This document shows, piece after piece, positions 2,783 through 46,562 of a stretch of DNA of 64,000 bases. The notes under the pieces were generated by a model, which made no database searches, was not told the DNA's origin, and was given only the letters and a program-made list of their open reading frames with translations. The DNA is from a delta proteobacterium ML8_F1 (GTDB taxonomy: Bacteria > Bacillota > Clostridia > Peptostreptococcales > Acidaminobacteraceae), in NCBI GenBank assembly GCA_002029975.1, contig LQBE01000015.1, positions 58,392-122,391 on the forward strand. Direction: 5' to 3'. The translations under genes were made by a program, and so were the position numbers. Within the stretch, counting starts at the first letter, position 1. The number at the start of each line of letters is the position of its first letter.

Positions 2783-4138
2783 CTACATGGCTTTAGCAAG
2801 GCTAATTAATGATGACAAAGTGCCTCTGGTCCTGAGCTCAAGTTCTGGAACTTTTGCCAGAGCTTGAGACCACTTCTTTTCAGAACTGGTTTTCTGTATT
2901 TCTTTGATAAAGTATCTCGCACCAATGTTGTATGATGCGTTAAGATCTGCCTGATAGGTTTTGCCTGATTGGAAAAGGGCAATATCTTTCCTCCTGTTTC
3001 TTTTGACAAGCCCGCTGCCATCAAAAGCGAGTGCGCTAGTGTTTTTCGCACTGACCCTGCGAAAACGCATACCTCTTTTGTGGGCCATATCCTCGACCTT
3101 GTCTTGAATCTTGGATTTTGCCCAGTACTGCATTTTCTGGCGAAATTTCATAACCCAAGAACTTTGACCTTTTGGCAGTTTGAATTTGCCAAGGTACTCG
3201 AAAACAATAACATCTGCTCCATTTTTCTCGGCAAACTTAATCATTTGACTAGCAGTGTCATGAACTATTTGTTTTTGAAGATGGTTGATTTTACGCCAGT
3301 GATTTGGAAAATTATTTTTACTGTTTTGCCCAGACTTCTTTTGCGCTTTTTTAAGTCTACCCAGGCGATGAAGTAATCGGTCTTTTTCTACTGACTGATT
3401 GATAAAAATTCGGTCAGTGACAGTACCATCAGACCTCATGGCAGAGCAAACCGCACTGTTGGTTAGTCCAAGGTCAACAGAAATAATCGTTTGGTCTTCC
3501 AATTTCGTGTTTTTCAGGGGCATGTTTTTCTGGTATGGGACCGCTAAGTAGTATTTTTTCCCGTGTTTCACCAGTGTGGGATTAAATGCTTTGTAGTTTA
3601 GCAGGTCGCGTTTCTCAAGATTTTTCATCTCAAATGAAATCTTAATCCAGACCCAATCATTCTTGTGAAAAACTTTGATCATGGCTTCTCCATCACCAAG
3701 TTTGTTGAACATGTTGGATTTGTAGAAAACCGGAAAAGCATCGTGTTTCTTTGAGAGTGTCGGTGCCTTGTCCTTGAACGCTTTGCCCTCTGATTCGAAT
3801 AGGCGTTGCTTCTCATAGTGATTTGCTAGATTGGATCGATGACTGGATACGATTCCCATTGCTTCAGCAGTAGCACTTCTTCGGAAATAACTTGGGAACT
3901 TGTGAAACTGCTGGTCGAACTTAGGATATTGGGGTGAAGGATTCTCTTTTGTCTCGTGAATGAGTTTTTCTACATGATTATATCGCTCTTTAGAGGTTTC
4001 CATAAGAGAGAGTGTTTCCCACTCATTATTGATGGCATCGACAATAAAAGCAAGGGCTTCTCGATAAATATTGAGGGTTGCTTTAAGCCTATTGGTGTGA
4101 GATGTAATTTTATGCCGAACAGTTTTAGTCACTTTCAT
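2783..4138 (-). CDS. tnpB: TnpB-family RuvC nuclease (IS605 OrfB), zinc-finger-less variant
   Basis: Transposon-encoded RNA-guided nuclease family protein, 451 residues from the ATG at 4138, which follows an AGGTG; an upstream TTG at 4153 would add five residues. The three RuvC acidic residues are visible: D222 in ISVDLGLTNSA, E314 in VIVFEYLGK and D398 in QADLNASYNIGARYF. Between the second and third RuvC motifs canonical TnpB has a four-cysteine zinc ribbon; here that stretch (NTSALAFDGSGLV, about 366-378) contains no cysteine at all. I recall a similar AFDGSG block in 'TnpB-related accessory proteins' of Firmicutes, so this is probably a recognised sub-branch rather than fresh decay. The frame is open throughout, so the gene looks intact while its partner tnpA is dead. 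Whether it still cuts DNA is unknown. Confidence 0.88.
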   Translation of the reverse strand: MKVTKTVRHKITSHTNRLKATLNIYREALAFIVDAINNEWETLSLMETSKERYNHVEKLIHETKENPSPQYPKFDQQFHKFPSYFRRSATAEAMGIVSSHRSNLANHYEKQRLFESEGKAFKDKAPTLSKKHDAFPVFYKSNMFNKLGDGEAMIKVFHKNDWVWIKISFEMKNLEKRDLLNYKAFNPTLVKHGKKYYLAVPYQKNMPLKNTKLEDQTIISVDLGLTNSAVCSAMRSDGTVTDRIFINQSVEKDRLLHRLGRLKKAQKKSGQNSKNNFPNHWRKINHLQKQIVHDTASQMIKFAEKNGADVIVFEYLGKFKLPKGQSSWVMKFRQKMQYWAKSKIQDKVEDMAHKRGMRFRRVSAKNTSALAFDGSGLVKRNRRKDIALFQSGKTYQADLNASYNIGARYFIKEIQKTSSEKKWSQALAKVPELELRTRGTLSSLISLAKAM

Positions 4139-4219
4139 ATGGCACCTCGTCAAATCCGGTTCTTTCTGTTACAATAATACCATAAATGGTATTTATTGTA
4201 AATAAATGAGGGATGCTGT

Positions 4220-4414: not shown

Positions 4415-4467
4415 AAACTAACCCCTCCTAAATCGGATTAGAGAAGGGGATTGCGTTTTTAATTTTG

Positions 4468-4773
4468 TTCAATCAGGAAGCCCTGAAGTCAAAGGACAAG
4501 GTGGACCTGATCACCATCACCCTGGACCTTCCCTTTGCCCAGAAGCGCTACTGCGCCGCTGAAGGGATTGAGAACATGACGGTGGTCAGCGACTATCAGC
4601 AAAGGGATTTTGGCTTGAAATACGGGTTTTTGATTGATGAGCTCAAACTGCTCACCCGGGGCGTCGTTGTCATCGGCAGGGACAACATCGTCAAATACGT
4701 GCAGTATGTGGCCGAGGTAGGCAATGAACCGGATTACGAGGCGGTGCTTGAGGTTATTGAGGCCCTGGATTAG
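4468..4773 (+). pseudogene. tpx: Thiol peroxidase (Tpx) 3' remnant, N-terminus lost at the IS end
   Basis: The product from 4468 matches the C-terminal two thirds of a Tpx peroxiredoxin: FNQEALK, then ITITLDLPFAQKRYC, GIENMTVVSDY, LLTRGVVVIG and a final VIEALD. Family members are about 165 residues; the first 60 or so, including the peroxidatic cysteine, are absent. Homology begins exactly at the inferred left end of the IS605-like element, and the TTG at 4465 that could start translation lies in the junction. The missing 5' part is not present on the other side of the element, so the insertion was accompanied or followed by a deletion. The resolving cysteine (KRYC) remains but cannot act alone. 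Confidence 0.85.
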
Positions 4774-4779
4774 TTTGTT

Positions 4780-4808
4780 TTGACAAGGGGCCGAAAAGAT
4801 GGTATAGT
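4780..4808 (+). promoter_or_regulatory. Sigma-A type promoter for the UPF0316 leader
   Basis: TTGACA at 4780-4785 and TATAGT at 4803-4808 are separated by 17 bases. Transcription would begin near 4815, giving an untranslated leader of about 140 bases. Confidence 0.8.
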
Positions 4809-4810
4809 AG

Positions 4811-4914
4811 CTAAGTCGGGTCAATCCCGACAATATGAAATCAGCTATCCCGTCGTTACCCATGAAATGGATAATCGATAGACCTGAGAGACTTCAGGTC
4901 TATTTTATTTTGTT
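4811..4914 (+). ncRNA. Candidate riboswitch-like leader with terminator (class not recognised)
   Basis: The leader has a perfect 6-bp hairpin GTCGGG/CCCGAC (4815-4820/4826-4831), then a helix CTATC (4845-4849) with GATAG (4877-4881) that encloses a CCAT-GAA-ATGG hairpin (4860-4870). The ATAG part of GATAG is also the base of a 10-bp terminator stem ATAGACCTGA/TCAGGTCTAT (4878-4887/4894-4903) followed by a T-rich run. The two helices are mutually exclusive, so forming the upstream helix would stop terminator formation: an 'ON' switch geometry. I do not recognise the aptamer; the guanidine-IV class is one to compare. Structure seen directly; ligand control is inferred. Confidence 0.55.
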
Positions 4915-4954
4915 TGTCGGGAAGCAGCGGGGCAGTTTTTCAAGGAGGGAAAAG

Positions 4955-5590: not shown

Positions 5591-7963
5591 CTAGGGGCGG
5601 CGGATTTTGCGGGTGAAGAACTCATCGGCGATGGTGACGGCGCTTCTGGCATCTCTGCCGTAATAGTCCGCACCGATTTCCCTGGCGTATTCAGGGGTGA
5701 GAACAGCTCCCCCCACGAAAACCGATGTCTCAGGATATTCGGTTTTGATGGCCTTGATGGTGGTTTCCATGTGAAGCACCGTAGTGGTCATCAGGGCGCT
5801 GAGACCGACGAGCCTGACCCTGTGTCTGGCCACCGCTTCTACAACCTTTTGCGGGGAAGTGTCCTTGCCGAGGTCAATGACCTCATAGCCGTAGTTCTCA
5901 AGGAGGACCTTCACCAGGTTTTTGCCCAGGTCATGGACATCCCCCTGCACCGTGGCCAGGATAATGACTCCCTTGGGAGCGAGTTTTTCACCGCTTAAAA
6001 GGAGTTTTTTTCTCACAAGTTCGAAGGCGACACCGGCGGTTTCGGCGGCCCGGATCAGCTGAGGCAGGTAGATTGTCCTCTCCTCGTACTGCCGTCCCAC
6101 TTCATCAAGCGCGGGGACCAGATGGTTTTCAACAATCCACAGAGGCTCGTGGGTTTCAAGGCCTGCCTCGGTGAAGGTTCTCGTGGCTTCTTGGCTGCCC
6201 TTGAGTAGCATTTGAGTCAGATTTTCTTCCCGGATGGTCTCAGGGACACTCTCACCGGTGGTTTGATTGGCATAGGCGGCGATGAAGGCCTTTGCGTCGG
6301 GATCCTGGTTGGACAGCAGATTGAAGGCCATCAGAGTATCAATGACTCCGGGAGCGCCGGGGTCGATAATAACGGTGTCCAGGCCTGCACCAAGGGCCAT
6401 GGCGAGATAGGTCCGGTTGATCAGGGGCCGGTTGGGGAGACCATAGGAGACGTTGCTCAGACCCAGGGTAGTGAGGATGTCACCAGAGGCCTTGATGGCC
6501 CTGATGGCCTTGATGGTCTCCATCACCTCGGCCTGCTGGGCGCTGGCGGTAAGAACCAGGGTGTCGATGAGGAGCCTGCTTTTGTCAATGCCATAGTCCC
6601 CGGCGGTCCTGATGATTTTTTGTGCCACGGCCATGCGGCTTTCAAATTTTTTGGGAATGCCTCCTTCATCGAAGGTCAGGGCAATCACATAAGCACCGTA
6701 TTTTTTCACCAGGGGAAAGATGTCAGCCATGGACTGTGCCTTGCCATTGACCGAGTTGATAATGGGAACGCCATTATAGTGACGCAGGGCGGCTTCAATG
6801 ACCTCGGGGGTGGTGGTATCAAACTGCAGGGGAGCGTCAATCAGACCGTTGAAGCTTTCAATAATTTCAAGCATGGCTTTTTTCTCGTCCACCCCGGGCA
6901 GGGAGGTATTGATATCCAGGACCCTGGCTCCCTTCTCCACCTGCTCGAAGGCCATTTTGAGGGCCAAAGAAAAATCACCGGAGGTGAAGGGTTCCTTGAG
7001 CTGCCGGTTACCTGATGGATTGATGCGTTCACCGATAAGGGTGACCCCGTTATCGAGATTCACCCGTTTTTGGGAGGATGAGACGAAGCGTGGTCTTTTT
7101 TTGATTTCCCGTGGCTGGTAGCGGTCCTTGAGTTCACAAAGCTTCTGGATGGTCTGGGGGGTGGTGCCGCAGCAGCCCCCGATAATCTGGACCCCTTCAC
7201 TGACAAAAAGGTCATAGACTTCTTTGAAGGCCTCCGGGGAGACATGGTAGAAGGTTTTTCCGAAGTTGACACTCGGAAGCCCGGCATTGGCCTGGACCAT
7301 CACAGGAATTTCAGAGAAGTCGAGAATTCTTCTGACAATGGGAATCATTTCTCCGGGCCCCAGGGAGCAGTTGACTCCCAGGGCATCCACCCCCAGAGCC
7401 TCGAGGGCGAGAACCATGGTTTCGGGATCGGTTCCCGTCAGGCTCAGACCGTCGGCTTCAAAGGTCATGGTGGCGAATACCCTGCAGGAGGCGTTTTCCT
7501 TGGCGGCAAGTACGGCGGCCCGCATTTCGCCAAGATCCGACATGGTTTCAATCAGAATCACATCAATGCCCTTGCTGACACCGATGACCACTTGATTCTT
7601 GAAATACTCGTAGGCTTCCTCGAAATCCATTTCACCGATGGGGCGCATTACCCGCCCGATGGGACCCAGATCAAGGGCGATTTTCACATCGGTACCCTCA
7701 GTGGCGGCTTTGGCATTGTCTACGGCGGCAGAAACAATTGCTTCAAGGGAATACTTTGATTCAGAGAGTTTGTAGGCATTGGCGCCAAAGGTGTGGGTGG
7801 TGATGACCTGAGCCCCGTGGGCGATGTAGTCCTTGTGGATGGACACAATCACCTCGGGGTTTTCAATATTGAGTTCCTCGGGGATTGAGGTATTCACAAA
7901 TCCCTTTTCCTGCAGCATGGTGCCCATGGCACCGTCAAATACAAGCAATCCTGATTCCAACAA
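5591..7963 (-). CDS. metH: Cobalamin-dependent methionine synthase, short form without reactivation domain
   Basis: Transfers the methyl group of methyl-tetrahydrofolate to homocysteine through a corrinoid. Domains in order: homocysteine-binding barrel (about 1-290) with zinc ligands in GVNCSLGP and IIGGCCGTTP; pterin-binding barrel (about 305-560) with TLIGERINPSGNRQ; B12 cap and B12-binding domains (about 575-790) with the base-off motif DVHDLG. At 790 residues it lacks the C-terminal AdoMet-dependent reactivation domain of long MetH; that function is encoded by the next gene upstream. The TTG at 7963 is the likely start, behind AAAGGAGATG that overlaps the stop of that gene. Last gene of the S-box operon. 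Confidence 0.95.
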   Translation of the reverse strand: MLESGLLVFDGAMGTMLQEKGFVNTSIPEELNIENPEVIVSIHKDYIAHGAQVITTHTFGANAYKLSESKYSLEAIVSAAVDNAKAATEGTDVKIALDLGPIGRVMRPIGEMDFEEAYEYFKNQVVIGVSKGIDVILIETMSDLGEMRAAVLAAKENASCRVFATMTFEADGLSLTGTDPETMVLALEALGVDALGVNCSLGPGEMIPIVRRILDFSEIPVMVQANAGLPSVNFGKTFYHVSPEAFKEVYDLFVSEGVQIIGGCCGTTPQTIQKLCELKDRYQPREIKKRPRFVSSSQKRVNLDNGVTLIGERINPSGNRQLKEPFTSGDFSLALKMAFEQVEKGARVLDINTSLPGVDEKKAMLEIIESFNGLIDAPLQFDTTTPEVIEAALRHYNGVPIINSVNGKAQSMADIFPLVKKYGAYVIALTFDEGGIPKKFESRMAVAQKIIRTAGDYGIDKSRLLIDTLVLTASAQQAEVMETIKAIRAIKASGDILTTLGLSNVSYGLPNRPLINRTYLAMALGAGLDTVIIDPGAPGVIDTLMAFNLLSNQDPDAKAFIAAYANQTTGESVPETIREENLTQMLLKGSQEATRTFTEAGLETHEPLWIVENHLVPALDEVGRQYEERTIYLPQLIRAAETAGVAFELVRKKLLLSGEKLAPKGVIILATVQGDVHDLGKNLVKVLLENYGYEVIDLGKDTSPQKVVEAVARHRVRLVGLSALMTTTVLHMETTIKAIKTEYPETSVFVGGAVLTPEYAREIGADYYGRDARSAVTIADEFFTRKIRRP

Positions 7964-7970
7964 GGTAATT

Positions 7971-8642
7971 TCATCTCCTTTGATCTTTTCTGTGATGACA
8001 GGTGGCCACGTAGGCGCAACCCTCGCAGGAGGGCTGGCCGCAGCGGTTGACAGTTTCCTTTGGCATCACCCGGCTGGAAATGCCGAGGACGGCAACAATG
8101 GATTTGAGAGGTACCAGCAGCAGGCTGTCATTGAGACTCAGTCCGATTTTTTTGTAGGCGTCCAGCACCCCCAGAATAGGCTTCTGGTCCTTCAGGGGCA
8201 TATCCCCGTATCCGGGACTGAAGCGGGACCGAAAATAGGTGTCTGGGGGAAAGGCCTGCTTGATTTTTTCCTCGCACTCGTCGCAAACGGTTTCAATGAC
8301 AACAGAGGCGGTGGCATCGGCGACAAGCCCCTCATAGGCGTTCAGTCGGTTTTTGAGCTGAATCATGCGGTCGGCTGCCTGTCCGAGGGTACAGGCCAAA
8401 AGAGCCACTTCTTCGCAGCCCTTGAGATGTTCGGCGATACTTTTTCCTTCAAGGGCCAGGAGGGGATGGGAGAGGTCTACGCAATCTTCCCTGATGCTGT
8501 TGATTTTGAAGGTTTCATAGACGCATTTTCTCTTAAGCAGGCTTGTCATTTCCCCGTGGATTTTTTCAATGGTTTCCCGGGTTTCCGGGTCAGAGCCCCC
8601 GGGATAACCAAGGTACTCCTCAATGGTGCGGATAGTGTCCAT
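7971..8642 (-). CDS. Free-standing methionine synthase reactivation domain
   Basis: This 223-residue protein resembles the AdoMet-binding reactivation domain normally found at the C-terminus of MetH. The signature RSRFSPGYGDMPL (around residue 140) corresponds to the AdoMet-binding segment of MetH. It should methylate and rescue the oxidised cob(II)alamin form of the adjacent short MetH. A C-terminal cysteine cluster (CGQPSCEGCAYVATC) is an addition absent from classical MetH and could bind a metal or Fe-S centre, but that is inference. The ATG at 8642 follows a GGAGAG. It lies between metF and metH with gaps of only a few bases, so the three are clearly co-transcribed. Confidence 0.9.
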   Translation of the reverse strand: MDTIRTIEEYLGYPGGSDPETRETIEKIHGEMTSLLKRKCVYETFKINSIREDCVDLSHPLLALEGKSIAEHLKGCEEVALLACTLGQAADRMIQLKNRLNAYEGLVADATASVVIETVCDECEEKIKQAFPPDTYFRSRFSPGYGDMPLKDQKPILGVLDAYKKIGLSLNDSLLLVPLKSIVAVLGISSRVMPKETVNRCGQPSCEGCAYVATCHHRKDQRR

Positions 8643-8652
8643 AGGCTCTCCT

Positions 8653-9537
8653 TTATTTCTGGGTCAGGGTTTTTCTGATAGTGGTGATGGGTTCCATGAT
8701 TTTTCGGGTGTTCATGGGCTGGTTCATGGTATAAAGATGAATTCCGTCGACCCCCGAGGAAAGCAGGTCGATGATCTGATTGACGGCGTAGGCGATTCCG
8801 GCTTCTCTGAGGGCTTCAGGCTTGTCCTGATAGCGGTCGATAATCCTTGAAAATTTCGAGGGGAGACGGGTGCCGGTCAAGGCCTGGACATGGTTGATCT
8901 GTCTGAGGTTGACCACAGGGAAGATTCCGGCAATCACGGGAACCTTGATGTCGAGCAGGTCCAGGCTCTCTTTGAACTGGTAAAATTTCCTGTTGTCAAA
9001 AAAAAGCTGGGTGATGAGAAAGTCAAGACCGTGGTCCACCTTGGATTTGAGATACTTGATATCTGAAGTTCTGCTCAGGGACTCCACATGGCCTTCTGGG
9101 TAGGCGGCACCGCCGATGCTGAAATACCGGGATTTTTTGATTTCCTCGATGAGGTCCACGGTGTGGGGATAGGCGGGCTTGAAGCCGCTTTTTACAAGAG
9201 CCTCCGGGATGTCTCCCCTCAGAGCGAGGATGTTTTCCACACCGGAAGCCTTCAGGGTTTCAATGGTAGTGCGGATAGTCTCCCGTGAGGAGGAAATACA
9301 GGTCAGATGGGCGATGGATTCTATCCCGTAGTGGTTTTTGATCCGAGAGGCGATTTCAATGGTGTTGTTCTGGGTGGACCCGCCGGCACCGTAGGTGACA
9401 CTGATGAAATCAGGGTCAAGGTCTTTGAGGGATTCTATGGTATCATAAATGGTTTCGATGGGGTAATCCTTTTTTGGTGGAAAGACCTCGAAGGAGACAG
9501 TGGGTCTTTTTTCGTCAAACATATTTTTGATTTTCAC
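8653..9537 (-). CDS. metF: 5,10-methylenetetrahydrofolate reductase
   Basis: Reduces methylene-THF to methyl-THF, the methyl donor used by MetH. The 294-residue barrel shows the family landmarks FEVFPPK near the N-terminus (catalytic Glu), SVTYGAGGS, AHLTCISSS, LALRGDIP and FLITQLFFDN. Translation starts at GTG 9537 after AGGAAG with a 6-base gap. There is no sign of the C-terminal regulatory domain of eukaryotic enzymes. Position inside the S-box operon fits folate-dependent methionine synthesis; in acetogens the same enzyme also serves the Wood-Ljungdahl methyl branch, but no other genes of that pathway are visible here. Confidence 0.95.
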   Translation of the reverse strand: MKIKNMFDEKRPTVSFEVFPPKKDYPIETIYDTIESLKDLDPDFISVTYGAGGSTQNNTIEIASRIKNHYGIESIAHLTCISSSRETIRTTIETLKASGVENILALRGDIPEALVKSGFKPAYPHTVDLIEEIKKSRYFSIGGAAYPEGHVESLSRTSDIKYLKSKVDHGLDFLITQLFFDNRKFYQFKESLDLLDIKVPVIAGIFPVVNLRQINHVQALTGTRLPSKFSRIIDRYQDKPEALREAGIAYAVNQIIDLLSSGVDGIHLYTMNQPMNTRKIMEPITTIRKTLTQK

Positions 9538-9555
9538 AGTGTTCTTCCTTTCAGT

Positions 9556-10266
9556 TTATAATAAGCTGATGTCGCCCCAGACTCCCAGCCGGTCATCGGC
9601 GAGAATCAGAATCCCCAGAAGACCGGGAATTTTTCTGGCATAGGCAATGGCCCGGGGGATATCTTCACGGGTCTGGACCACGTTGCCGATGGCCGTGGCC
9701 GCCGCATCAGCGAGGAGGGGGTCTTCAGACACCACCACTACCGCATCCGCTCTGCCGAAGCTCAGGGAGTGGCCCAGGGTTCCCGATGAGGTGCAGATGC
9801 CCAGGGGGGTGGTCTCGGGGGCCACTTTGATGGTGACCCCCCCTTCAAAGGCCTTTGAGGCCGAATGGATTTTGATGTGTCGCAGGGTGGTGGATTTCAC
9901 ATAAAGATCGCCGCCGTTTTCAATGATCAAATCCTCATTGAGGGGGCTCAGGGCTTCACCCAGATAGTAGGAGACTGCTCCGGCCACACTTGCCATGGGC
10001 CCCACATGCAGGGCGCTGGAGGCCTTCTTCATGTGAGTGATGACCCTGTCTTCTTCAACCAGGGGACTGAGAGGAGACAGGGCGTGGATAAAATGGGGCT
10101 CCCGCTTGATATGGTTTTTGATTCGGCGGCGGATACTCCGGAGTTCACTCTCAGCGCCCTTCAAAGTGCCACTGTAGTAAATCATCAGGTCCGATTCCCC
10201 AAGGATAATCTGGCGGGTTTTCAAATCGTTGAAAACTTCTTTCCGGTAGGTTCTCTCCTGGTACAT
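9556..10266 (-). CDS. UPF0280 / COG2122 protein, homocysteine or cysteine biosynthesis accessory
   Basis: A 236-residue protein of the UPF0280 family, recognised by HVGPMASVAGAVSYYLGEAL, DLIIENGGDLYVKS, GICTSSGTLGHSLSFG and AIGNVV. The fold is related to ApbE-like flavin proteins. In Methanosarcina a COG2122 protein has been tied genetically to sulfide-dependent homocysteine and cysteine formation together with the DUF39/NIL-ferredoxin pair, which is exactly the pair encoded just upstream here. The start is the ATG at 10266 behind GGAGGCCGCC; a longer reading frame into the upstream gene has no ribosome site. Precise chemistry is unknown. Confidence 0.88.
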   Translation of the reverse strand: MYQERTYRKEVFNDLKTRQIILGESDLMIYYSGTLKGAESELRSIRRRIKNHIKREPHFIHALSPLSPLVEEDRVITHMKKASSALHVGPMASVAGAVSYYLGEALSPLNEDLIIENGGDLYVKSTTLRHIKIHSASKAFEGGVTIKVAPETTPLGICTSSGTLGHSLSFGRADAVVVVSEDPLLADAAATAIGNVVQTREDIPRAIAYARKIPGLLGILILADDRLGVWGDISLL

Positions 10267-10282
10267 GGCGGCCTCCTTGCCC

Positions 10283-10693
10283 TTAAAGGGAGAATGCTTT
10301 TGAAATGGCCATGGAGGGACAGACAGGGACACACAAATCGCATCCCGTACATTTCTGTGGATTGTAGGCAAGCTCCCAGTCCGGAGAAGCAATGGAGAGG
10401 GCGCCGGTAAAGCAGACCGCAGTACAGAGGCCGCAGTCGGTGCACTGGTTTTTGTCGACTTCGATGATGGCATCCAGTATTTCACAGTGCATCCCCGACT
10501 GGTTGATGTCGGCTATGGTTTTGCTGATCATGGCGGCCTCTCCTTCGATTTCATAGAGGATATGACCAATATTGTTGTAGCCGATATCCGCTTTGAGGAT
10601 ATTGATGATCAGGTCATAGTCTTTGATCAGTCGATAGGTGAGGGGGGTTCCGGTGTGCTCTGCCGGGAAGGTAATCATAATTTTGCTTTTCAT
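10283..10693 (-). CDS. NIL domain plus two [4Fe-4S] ferredoxin protein of homocysteine synthesis
   Basis: The first 75 residues or so form a NIL domain, known from methionine ABC transporters as a methionine sensor. It is followed by two 4Fe-4S clusters: CTDCGLCTAVC and CTGCDLCVPVC. The 136-residue protein is the usual partner of DUF39 proteins; in methanogens (the MA1822 type) it supplies electrons or sulfur handling for converting aspartate semialdehyde and sulfide to homocysteine. Its start overlaps the end of the DUF39 gene by four bases, implying translational coupling and a stoichiometric complex. The NIL domain suggests a possible methionine feedback point, which is inference. Confidence 0.9.
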   Translation of the reverse strand: MKSKIMITFPAEHTGTPLTYRLIKDYDLIINILKADIGYNNIGHILYEIEGEAAMISKTIADINQSGMHCEILDAIIEVDKNQCTDCGLCTAVCFTGALSIASPDWELAYNPQKCTGCDLCVPVCPSMAISKAFSL

Positions 10694-11859
10694 GCGTCCT
10701 CCCCTCCTTCTACCATGGGCTTCACCCTGTGGTCGAGGGTGAAATATTCAACGGGCTGCGACAGGAAGAATTCCCCCTGCTGAATCTGTTCTTTAAGAAT
10801 TTGAGCAATTTTCCTGGCTTTTCTCAGACTGCTCAGGGGTGCGGTCTTGACTTTTCTGTCCCCGACTGACACCTCGCCGCTTCTGAGTTCAGCGTAGGTG
10901 ACTGTGGCAATGACAGGCTTCGATCTCGCGGGGACACTGTAGTCGATGACATTGGTTTTAATGGCCTCGTCGCTGATGCCACAGTCACTGAGAACCCCCG
11001 GGTTCAAGACGGGTATGGGGATTCCGATGCCGACATTCATACTGACACCGTATCCCTTGAAAACCACGGGAGAGAGGAACTCCCTGTCCATTTTCTTGAG
11101 ATTGCCGATTACCGAGAGGGTGGCCGCCGGGGTTTTTGGAATCCCGTTGTCGTCCCGTTCCACGTCGGTTTTGAACTGGGTTCCGTTGAAGGCGACATAT
11201 CCCTGGGCTCCGGCCAGAAAGATTCTGGTGCCGATTCCGATGGTCTTCAGATAAGGATCATTCAACAGGGGGCTGAGCTGTCCCGTGGTGGAATAGGTGA
11301 TGTTCGATCCATCCGGCAGCAGAGTTCCCATGTAGGTATGGATAGGCCTGGAGGAGAGATTGATGGCTGCCGCATAATTCTGATAGGCGTTTCTGGGATT
11401 GAACATGAAAGCCTCGTTGAGGTCCTCCAGGGAGACCTCCCGGGAGACGGATTTTCCAGGATAGCAGTCTGTTCCTTTGGCGGAGCCTTTGAGGGTGACT
11501 TTTTTGCCCTCAACCAGATCACAAATCACATGAGCCCCTCCATAGGATTCCGGTGCGGATTCCGAGACATCAGTGGCACCAATGTAGGTATCCACGGCGG
11601 CGAGCCCTCCGGATGCGGGGACATTGTTGAGGGTGATTTTTTCCAGGCGGATAGGGGGGTCTGAATGTCCGAAATTGAGAAAGGCGCCGGTGGAGCACAT
11701 GGGACCGAAGGTGGCTGTGGTCACCACGTCCACCTGGTCAAAGGCGGACTCAGGGCCCTGTTCCCGGACGAGTCCGATGACTTCTTCCGCTGTCATTACC
11801 ACGACATTCCCCTGTCTGATTTTTTCATTGATTGCTTCGATGGTCCGTGATCGTGTCAT
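10690..11859 (-). CDS. DUF39 homocysteine biosynthesis protein (aspartate semialdehyde sulfurtransferase)
   Basis: A 389-residue DUF39 protein. Landmarks include TTATFGPMCSTGAFLNFGH near residue 48, GTDCYPGKSVSR, and LNPGVLSDCGISDE near the C-terminus; the conserved cysteines are those expected to carry the persulfide. In methanogens and several anaerobic bacteria this family forms homocysteine directly from aspartate semialdehyde with reduced sulfur, bypassing O-acylhomoserine and cystathionine. It is the first gene of the S-box operon, starting at ATG 11859 behind AAGGAGG. No metA, metB, metC or metY gene is visible in the window, which fits this being the local route to homocysteine. Confidence 0.92.
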   Translation of the reverse strand: MTRSRTIEAINEKIRQGNVVVMTAEEVIGLVREQGPESAFDQVDVVTTATFGPMCSTGAFLNFGHSDPPIRLEKITLNNVPASGGLAAVDTYIGATDVSESAPESYGGAHVICDLVEGKKVTLKGSAKGTDCYPGKSVSREVSLEDLNEAFMFNPRNAYQNYAAAINLSSRPIHTYMGTLLPDGSNITYSTTGQLSPLLNDPYLKTIGIGTRIFLAGAQGYVAFNGTQFKTDVERDDNGIPKTPAATLSVIGNLKKMDREFLSPVVFKGYGVSMNVGIGIPIPVLNPGVLSDCGISDEAIKTNVIDYSVPARSKPVIATVTYAELRSGEVSVGDRKVKTAPLSSLRKARKIAQILKEQIQQGEFFLSQPVEYFTLDHRVKPMVEGGEDA

Positions 11860-11911: not shown

Positions 11912-12016
11912 AGGTGATTTTCTCATCTTCCGGTTTACACCGCTGGATTTAGCACCACACCGTCAGGTAGGTTGCTGGATGTCATCGGGCCAGTCCCTCA
12001 ATCGCTCTTGATAAGT
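11912..12016 (-). ncRNA. SAM-I riboswitch (S-box)
   Basis: The minus strand carries the S-box hallmarks in order: CTTATCAAGAG, GAGGGACTGGCCCGATGA, CCAGCAACC, GGTGCTAAATCC and AGATGAGAA, then the terminator. Binding of S-adenosylmethionine should cause termination and shut off the six-gene methionine operon. Confidence 0.97.
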
Positions 12017-12044
12017 GTTGCTATTCAGTTGGTATTTGAAAATT

Positions 12045-46371: not shown

Positions 46372-46429
46372 GTGACAAATCATATGGACCGGATGATGGC
46401 AGTGGAAGAGGAATTCGACCGTTGCCGGA

Positions 46430-46521
46430 CGGGACTCTGGAGAGACTCTTTAAATAGAGCACCGAAGGGGAAAGCGTTCGTTTTGAAAAGAACGTCAAAC
46501 TCTCAGGTAAAAGGACAGAGA
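46430..46521 (+). ncRNA. Glycine riboswitch, single aptamer
   Basis: Core elements in order: GGACTCTGGAGAGACTC, GCACCGAAGGGGAAAGCG, AACTCTCAGGTAAAAGGAC and AGAG, with P1 formed by CTCTG (46435-46439) and CAGAG (46516-46520). Only one aptamer is present; the usual tandem partner is absent. A weak hairpin (around 46521-46550) and then a strong terminator lie downstream. Confidence 0.93.
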
Positions 46522-46562
46522 AAAGGGCTTTTAGTTGACGAGCCTTTTTATCTGCCTGCCTG

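Follow-up and report, generated by a model that had tools for sequence, protein, structure and literature searches.

Overlapping terminator and antiterminator folds in the leader of a UPF0316 gene suggest control by transcription attenuation

UPF0316 (DUF5698) is a conserved, uncharacterised family of membrane proteins, for which our literature search returned only incidental mentions in proteomics studies. In the 64,000-nucleotide stretch of DNA analysed here (the window), one UPF0316 gene carries a promoter and, 3′ of it within the gene's 5′ leader, a premature intrinsic terminator, which raises the question of whether the leader controls the gene and, if so, in response to what. A preliminary description of positions 4811–4914 had read it as a riboswitch-like ON switch. 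We consider the leader to be a cis-acting transcription attenuator of the UPF0316 gene, working by a terminator and an antiterminator, with a probability of about 0.75 (Table 1).

Table 1 Features of the UPF0316 leader and gene in the window.
Feature	Position	Strand	Basis or remark
Promoter TTGACA-17-TATAGT, extended −10	4780–4808	+	11/12 consensus match; position same in sister leader L002
5′-terminal hairpin GUCGGG-loop-CCCGAC	4815–4831	+	Strand A 4815–4822, strand B 4826–4831; kept in three leaders
Strand A UCGGGUC, complement of terminator 5′ arm GACCUGA (4881–4887)	4816–4822	+	Duplex −13.1 kcal/mol
AAUCAGCUAUCC	4839–4850	+	Longest identical block in the window versus L002 alignment; includes the antiterminator 5′ strand
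Antiterminator hairpin	4841–4887	+	Minimum free energy fold (MFE) of transcript up to 4887–4897; compensatory changes
Antiterminator pairs UCAG(4841–4844):CUGA(4884–4887); UC(4848–4849):GA(4881–4882)			
Antiterminator pairs GUCG(4852–4855):CGAU(4876–4879); UUA(4856–4858):UAA(4872–4874); CCAU(4860–4863):AUGG(4867–4870)			
Intrinsic terminator, 12-bp stem 4877–4888:4893–4904 and U-rich tail	4877–4914	+	Folding; U-A to C-G at 4879:4902 in L002
Ribosome-binding site AAGGAGG	4942–4948	+	Read directly
UPF0316/DUF5698 gene, 176 aa	4955–5485	+	Pfam PF18955, 3e-9

All elements named in the preliminary description were found where it had placed them, namely the 5′ hairpin (in DNA letters, GTCGGG 4815–4820 / CCCGAC 4826–4831), a CTATC/GATAG helix, a CCAT-GAA-ATGG hairpin (4860–4870), a terminator with the core ATAGACCTGA (4878–4887) / TCAGGTCTAT (4894–4903) and a T-rich tail, the strong promoter ahead of the leader and the gene for a UPF0316 membrane protein downstream. 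Since the promoter is near consensus, transcription is expected to start at ~4813–4815, and positions 4811–4814 of the interval first delimited probably lie before the start or straddle it. The helix GUAGCU(4807–4812)/AGCUAU, given by the first fold, was rejected; it overlaps the −10 element and is therefore probably not transcribed. The predicted folding energy of the 100-nt transcript 4815–4914 is −32 kcal/mol; 200 dinucleotide shuffles averaged −19.0 (sd 3.1), and none reached it (z −4.2, 0/200). Because GATAG (4877–4881) and the ATAG at the terminator base overlap, the two proposed states indeed exclude each other. No second copy of the leader was found elsewhere in the source genome.

The hairpin could instead be merely the 3′ terminator of the thiol peroxidase (tpx) gene, which ends at 4773 and also lies upstream in the sister genome. 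Against this, a strong promoter separates tpx from the terminator and none is visible in the window sequence between terminator and UPF0316 gene, while the promoter-leader-terminator layout recurs before UPF0316 at loci of other genera; we regard this explanation as very improbable. The tpx gene of the window (4465–4773, +) is itself without its 5′ half, which is present in the sister genome and was not found within the window, and it adjoins a gene for a TnpB-like transposon protein with a Cas12f1-like TNB domain (2783–4153, −).

Two relatives complete a set of three short leaders. L002 (the same as L038), from the one other genome of the genus examined, has the promoter, 5′ hairpin, AAUCAGCUAUCC block and terminator in common with the window, the terminator stem being retained with its U-A to C-G change. 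In L039, which comes from another genus of the family and whose protein is 67% identical, the layout recurs in a sequence that is largely different. A covariance model made from the three (R2) recovered no further convincing member among 41 family genomes: beyond the known three, a hit in genome G034 fell at the 3′ end of UPF0316, and the remaining weak hits were not before UPF0316.

Before the terminator 3′ arm exists, the computed minimum of all three leaders consists of the 5′ hairpin and the antiterminator hairpin, an architecture predicted independently in each, in which UCAG (probability 0.86–0.98 in the window and L002) or UUAGC (0.87–0.99 in L039) grips the terminator 5′ arm. In a sequence-only alignment of the three leaders, the 15 pairs of these two hairpins were paired in 91% of cells, and 5 of them had changed on both sides; as good a result came from 3 of 500 shuffles, and register-slid controls gave 0–1 compensatory pairs. 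The 5′ hairpin alone was paired in 18/18 cells, 2 of its pairs having changed on both sides. The alignment leaves two of the four UCAG:CUGA columns of L039 unpaired, shifted by one. A mutually exclusive competing helix with compensatory changes is accordingly supported by three sequences, two of them from one genus, and the covariation rests on few events for that reason.

The competing helix predicted here is not quite the one first proposed. An antiterminator does appear to exist on the same terminator bases, but the exact helix 4845–4849:4877–4881 is replaced by 4841–4844:4884–4887 together with 4848–4855:4876–4882. In L002, 2 of the 5 pairs of the original helix are broken; across the three leaders 333 of 500 shuffles paired as well, and the helix at 4845–4881, whose covariation the preliminary description had set as a test, is not conserved. 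CTATC/GATAG is one among several alternatives of similar energy in the window, and since its extended form, UCAGCUAUC:GAUAG-AC-CUGA, lies within 0.6 kcal/mol of the best window fold, it may exist in the window itself.

Attenuation by a leader peptide would be another way to couple such folds to gene expression, and an open frame from ATG 4835 continues in frame into the UPF0316 gene. The ATG and frame are absent from the sister leader L002, and no ribosome-binding site precedes ATG 4835; this mechanism is thus disfavoured, and we give it almost no weight.

Energies computed for growing transcripts change sides within the terminator. As long as the transcript ends no later than 4897, the antiterminated fold has the lowest energy; at 4898 the preference passes to the terminated fold, whose lead at full length is ~8 kcal/mol. 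In these models, a kinetically controlled attenuator would be expected to show such a crossover. RNA polymerase would start at ~4813–4815, and the stable 5′ hairpin would form first. The antiterminator hairpin 4841–4887 would then sequester the terminator 5′ arm until the 3′ arm (4893–4904) emerges, at which point the ~8 kcal/mol more stable terminator could displace it and so stop transcription before the gene. The fraction reading through would be set by whatever stabilises or blocks the antiterminator, be it a small molecule, an ion or a protein. The promoter, both folds, their overlap and the covariation are computed, whereas switching in the cell and a sensed signal are inferred; the crossover would fit a signal that turns the gene on as well as one that turns it off. 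The same lead of ~8 kcal/mol at full length would also suit an unregulated partial terminator that has no sensor and merely lowers UPF0316 expression, as would the absence of the element from several orthologues. Nevertheless, no part of the leader is better conserved than the antiterminator 5′ strand, whose pairs also covary; this argues against so simple a device, which we consider unlikely.

To place the attenuator in a wider context, protein searches of 61 relatives and of 394 order, 391 class and 398 phylum genomes yielded 65 distinct UPF0316 leaders, ~50 of which carry a terminator-like hairpin and U-tract before the gene (simple criteria). Among orthologues, the length before the terminator runs from ~65 to 450 nt. 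No terminator is obvious before UPF0316 in the family members L003, L025 and L032; in L003 and L025 the leader is short and the 5′ hairpin is present. Distant UPF0316 genes (~40% identical; L098–L102) also have an intrinsic terminator in the leader, and several of these have in common a CUCCUCUUC stem with no sequence relationship to the window leader.

A further regularity concerns the transcript 5′ end, which is complementary to the terminator 5′ arm (GUUAG/CUAAC in clostridial leaders, GUUGGC/GCUAAU in L039, UCGGGUC/GACCUGA in the window). In 25 of the 29 leaders with both ends defined, less than 1% of other segments match the transcript 5′ end in this pairing, a count that is no significance test because the leaders are related by descent. 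As judged by sequence comparison, this trait of the long leaders described below extends to the window and, more weakly, to L002: shuffled 5′ ends pair with the terminator arm as well in 0.05% of cases for the window, 13% for L002 and 3% for L039, and no rival segment of the window leader is as good as strand A. Strand A (4816–4822) is thereby a possible alternative antiterminator.

Long UPF0316 leaders of ~180–480 nt occur in Alkaliphilus, Natronincola, Tepidibacter, Tissierella, Anaerovirgula and other Clostridia (L004–L035 and L067–L096; for example L008:1522–1904, with its core at L008:1675–1766), and their core is strongly conserved (AAAGTAGATTTATTCTATTCTTGAATTTTCAATATGAATTATT). For 15 aligned Alkaliphilus-type members, the consensus fold of −54.4 compares with −22.8 (sd 3.4) for shuffled columns (z −9.3) and forms a long imperfect hairpin with further hairpins between both ends, while single long leaders are mostly not unusually stable (z −2.3 to +0.7). 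When all long leaders were aligned (31 sequences), RNAalifold recovered the terminator alone, because their lengths vary too much; the 15 closer ones worked. A model of the 92-nt core, searched against 277 genomes, gave 19 hits at E<1e-7, all 19 of which sit 125–329 nt upstream of UPF0316. The core found no convincing match in the window, L002 or L039 (genomes G000, G001 and G014; best E 0.012, in L039). The long leaders resemble the window leader in gene, layout and the complementarity of transcript 5′ end and terminator 5′ arm, and differ in their ~180–480 nt and the conserved 92-nt core. Homology of the short window leader to them, suggested by the same place and layout, is therefore only possible.

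As to what the attenuator would sense, a ligand-sensing riboswitch is a serious candidate to which we give somewhat less than even odds. A small molecule or ion would bind the 5′ hairpin, A-rich linker and antiterminator, and the gene would be ON if the antiterminator were held. Like orphan riboswitch candidates, the leader is compact, has mutually exclusive folds and precedes one gene; the long leaders, its possible relatives, have a conserved fold and core. Its features are those of terminator/antiterminator riboswitch leaders (a promoter, a short structured leader, a terminator 5′ arm common to the competing helix, one gene), which differ in having a known ligand and Rfam models. The window leader, with only three short members, matches none: in line with the preliminary view that no named class fits, the Rfam 15 comparison which that description had proposed yielded nothing at gathering threshold and, with the cutoff relaxed to E ≤ 10, only weak matches of no relevance. 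A T-box was rejected because the relaxed search returned none. Rfam gathering hits were also lacking at the UPF0316 loci of 20 relatives. Moreover, three leaders define no conserved sequence resembling a ligand pocket, a spread of ~65–450 nt before the terminator is unusual for a single aptamer class, and one regulated gene offers no ligand clue. Our literature search found nothing linking UPF0316 to riboswitches. Elsewhere in the window, Rfam identifies a SAM-I riboswitch (11920–12017, −; 2.4e-16) ahead of a gene run (5591–11859, −) that includes metH-like and methylenetetrahydrofolate-reductase-like genes and is convergent with UPF0316, and a glycine riboswitch (46427–46528, +; 1.2e-10).

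Riboswitch classes such as those for guanidine and NMT1/xanthine were orphans at first. Among described classes, the guanidine-IV (GGAM-1, mepA) riboswitch likewise places a terminator hairpin after a 5′ hairpin (PMC7736828). It needs a pseudoknot joining both hairpins, with highly conserved nucleotides around it, none of which we identified here (no complementary loop-loop partner was noticed, judged by eye alone), and its gene context is sugE/mepA rather than UPF0316. Rfam 15 gave no guanidine-IV hit at E ≤ 10, the inclusion of a guanidine-IV model in the library being uncertain. The yjdF motif is an orphan leader class found almost exclusively with one gene of unknown function (PMC4793209), and is in this respect like the UPF0316 leaders; its gene is a different one, and the Rfam search returned no yjdF hit for the window leader.

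The gene product bears on the signal as well. In an AlphaFold model (pLDDT 78.5), the protein has three predicted transmembrane helices and, at its C terminus, a PII/PstA/CutA-like domain, for which Foldseek matches PII proteins, PstA and CutA. PstA binds cyclic-di-AMP, and the PII/PstA-like fold binds nucleotides in known proteins, which favours a riboswitch at this gene. The modelled structure suggests that UPF0316 may be a membrane-located sensor for a nucleotide or small ligand. Alternatively, an RNA-binding protein, perhaps UPF0316 itself by feedback, might act on the leader to control antitermination. Each leader stands only before its own gene, as autogenous control predicts, and the conserved core strands of the long leaders could serve as protein sites. 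UPF0316, however, is predicted to lie in the membrane and its PII-like domain is not a recognised RNA-binding fold, and no known antiterminator-protein site was recognised, so that protein control seems rather doubtful to us.

The attenuator reading of the window leader gives UPF0316, a conserved and uncharacterised membrane protein family, a gene-specific candidate RNA switch and with it an experimental handle, as anything found to alter termination here becomes a candidate for the signal of the UPF0316 protein. The long leaders, being large, conserved, bound to one gene and without a gathering hit in Rfam at 20 loci, are a candidate new RNA family. More speculatively, and with clearly more doubt than confidence, one uncatalogued class of leader RNA might control UPF0316 genes across Clostridia by sensing one signal, ranging from 180–480 nt down to the ~100-nt minimal form seen here. 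If true, such a class would reveal directly which ligand or stress is tied to the PII-like membrane protein UPF0316.
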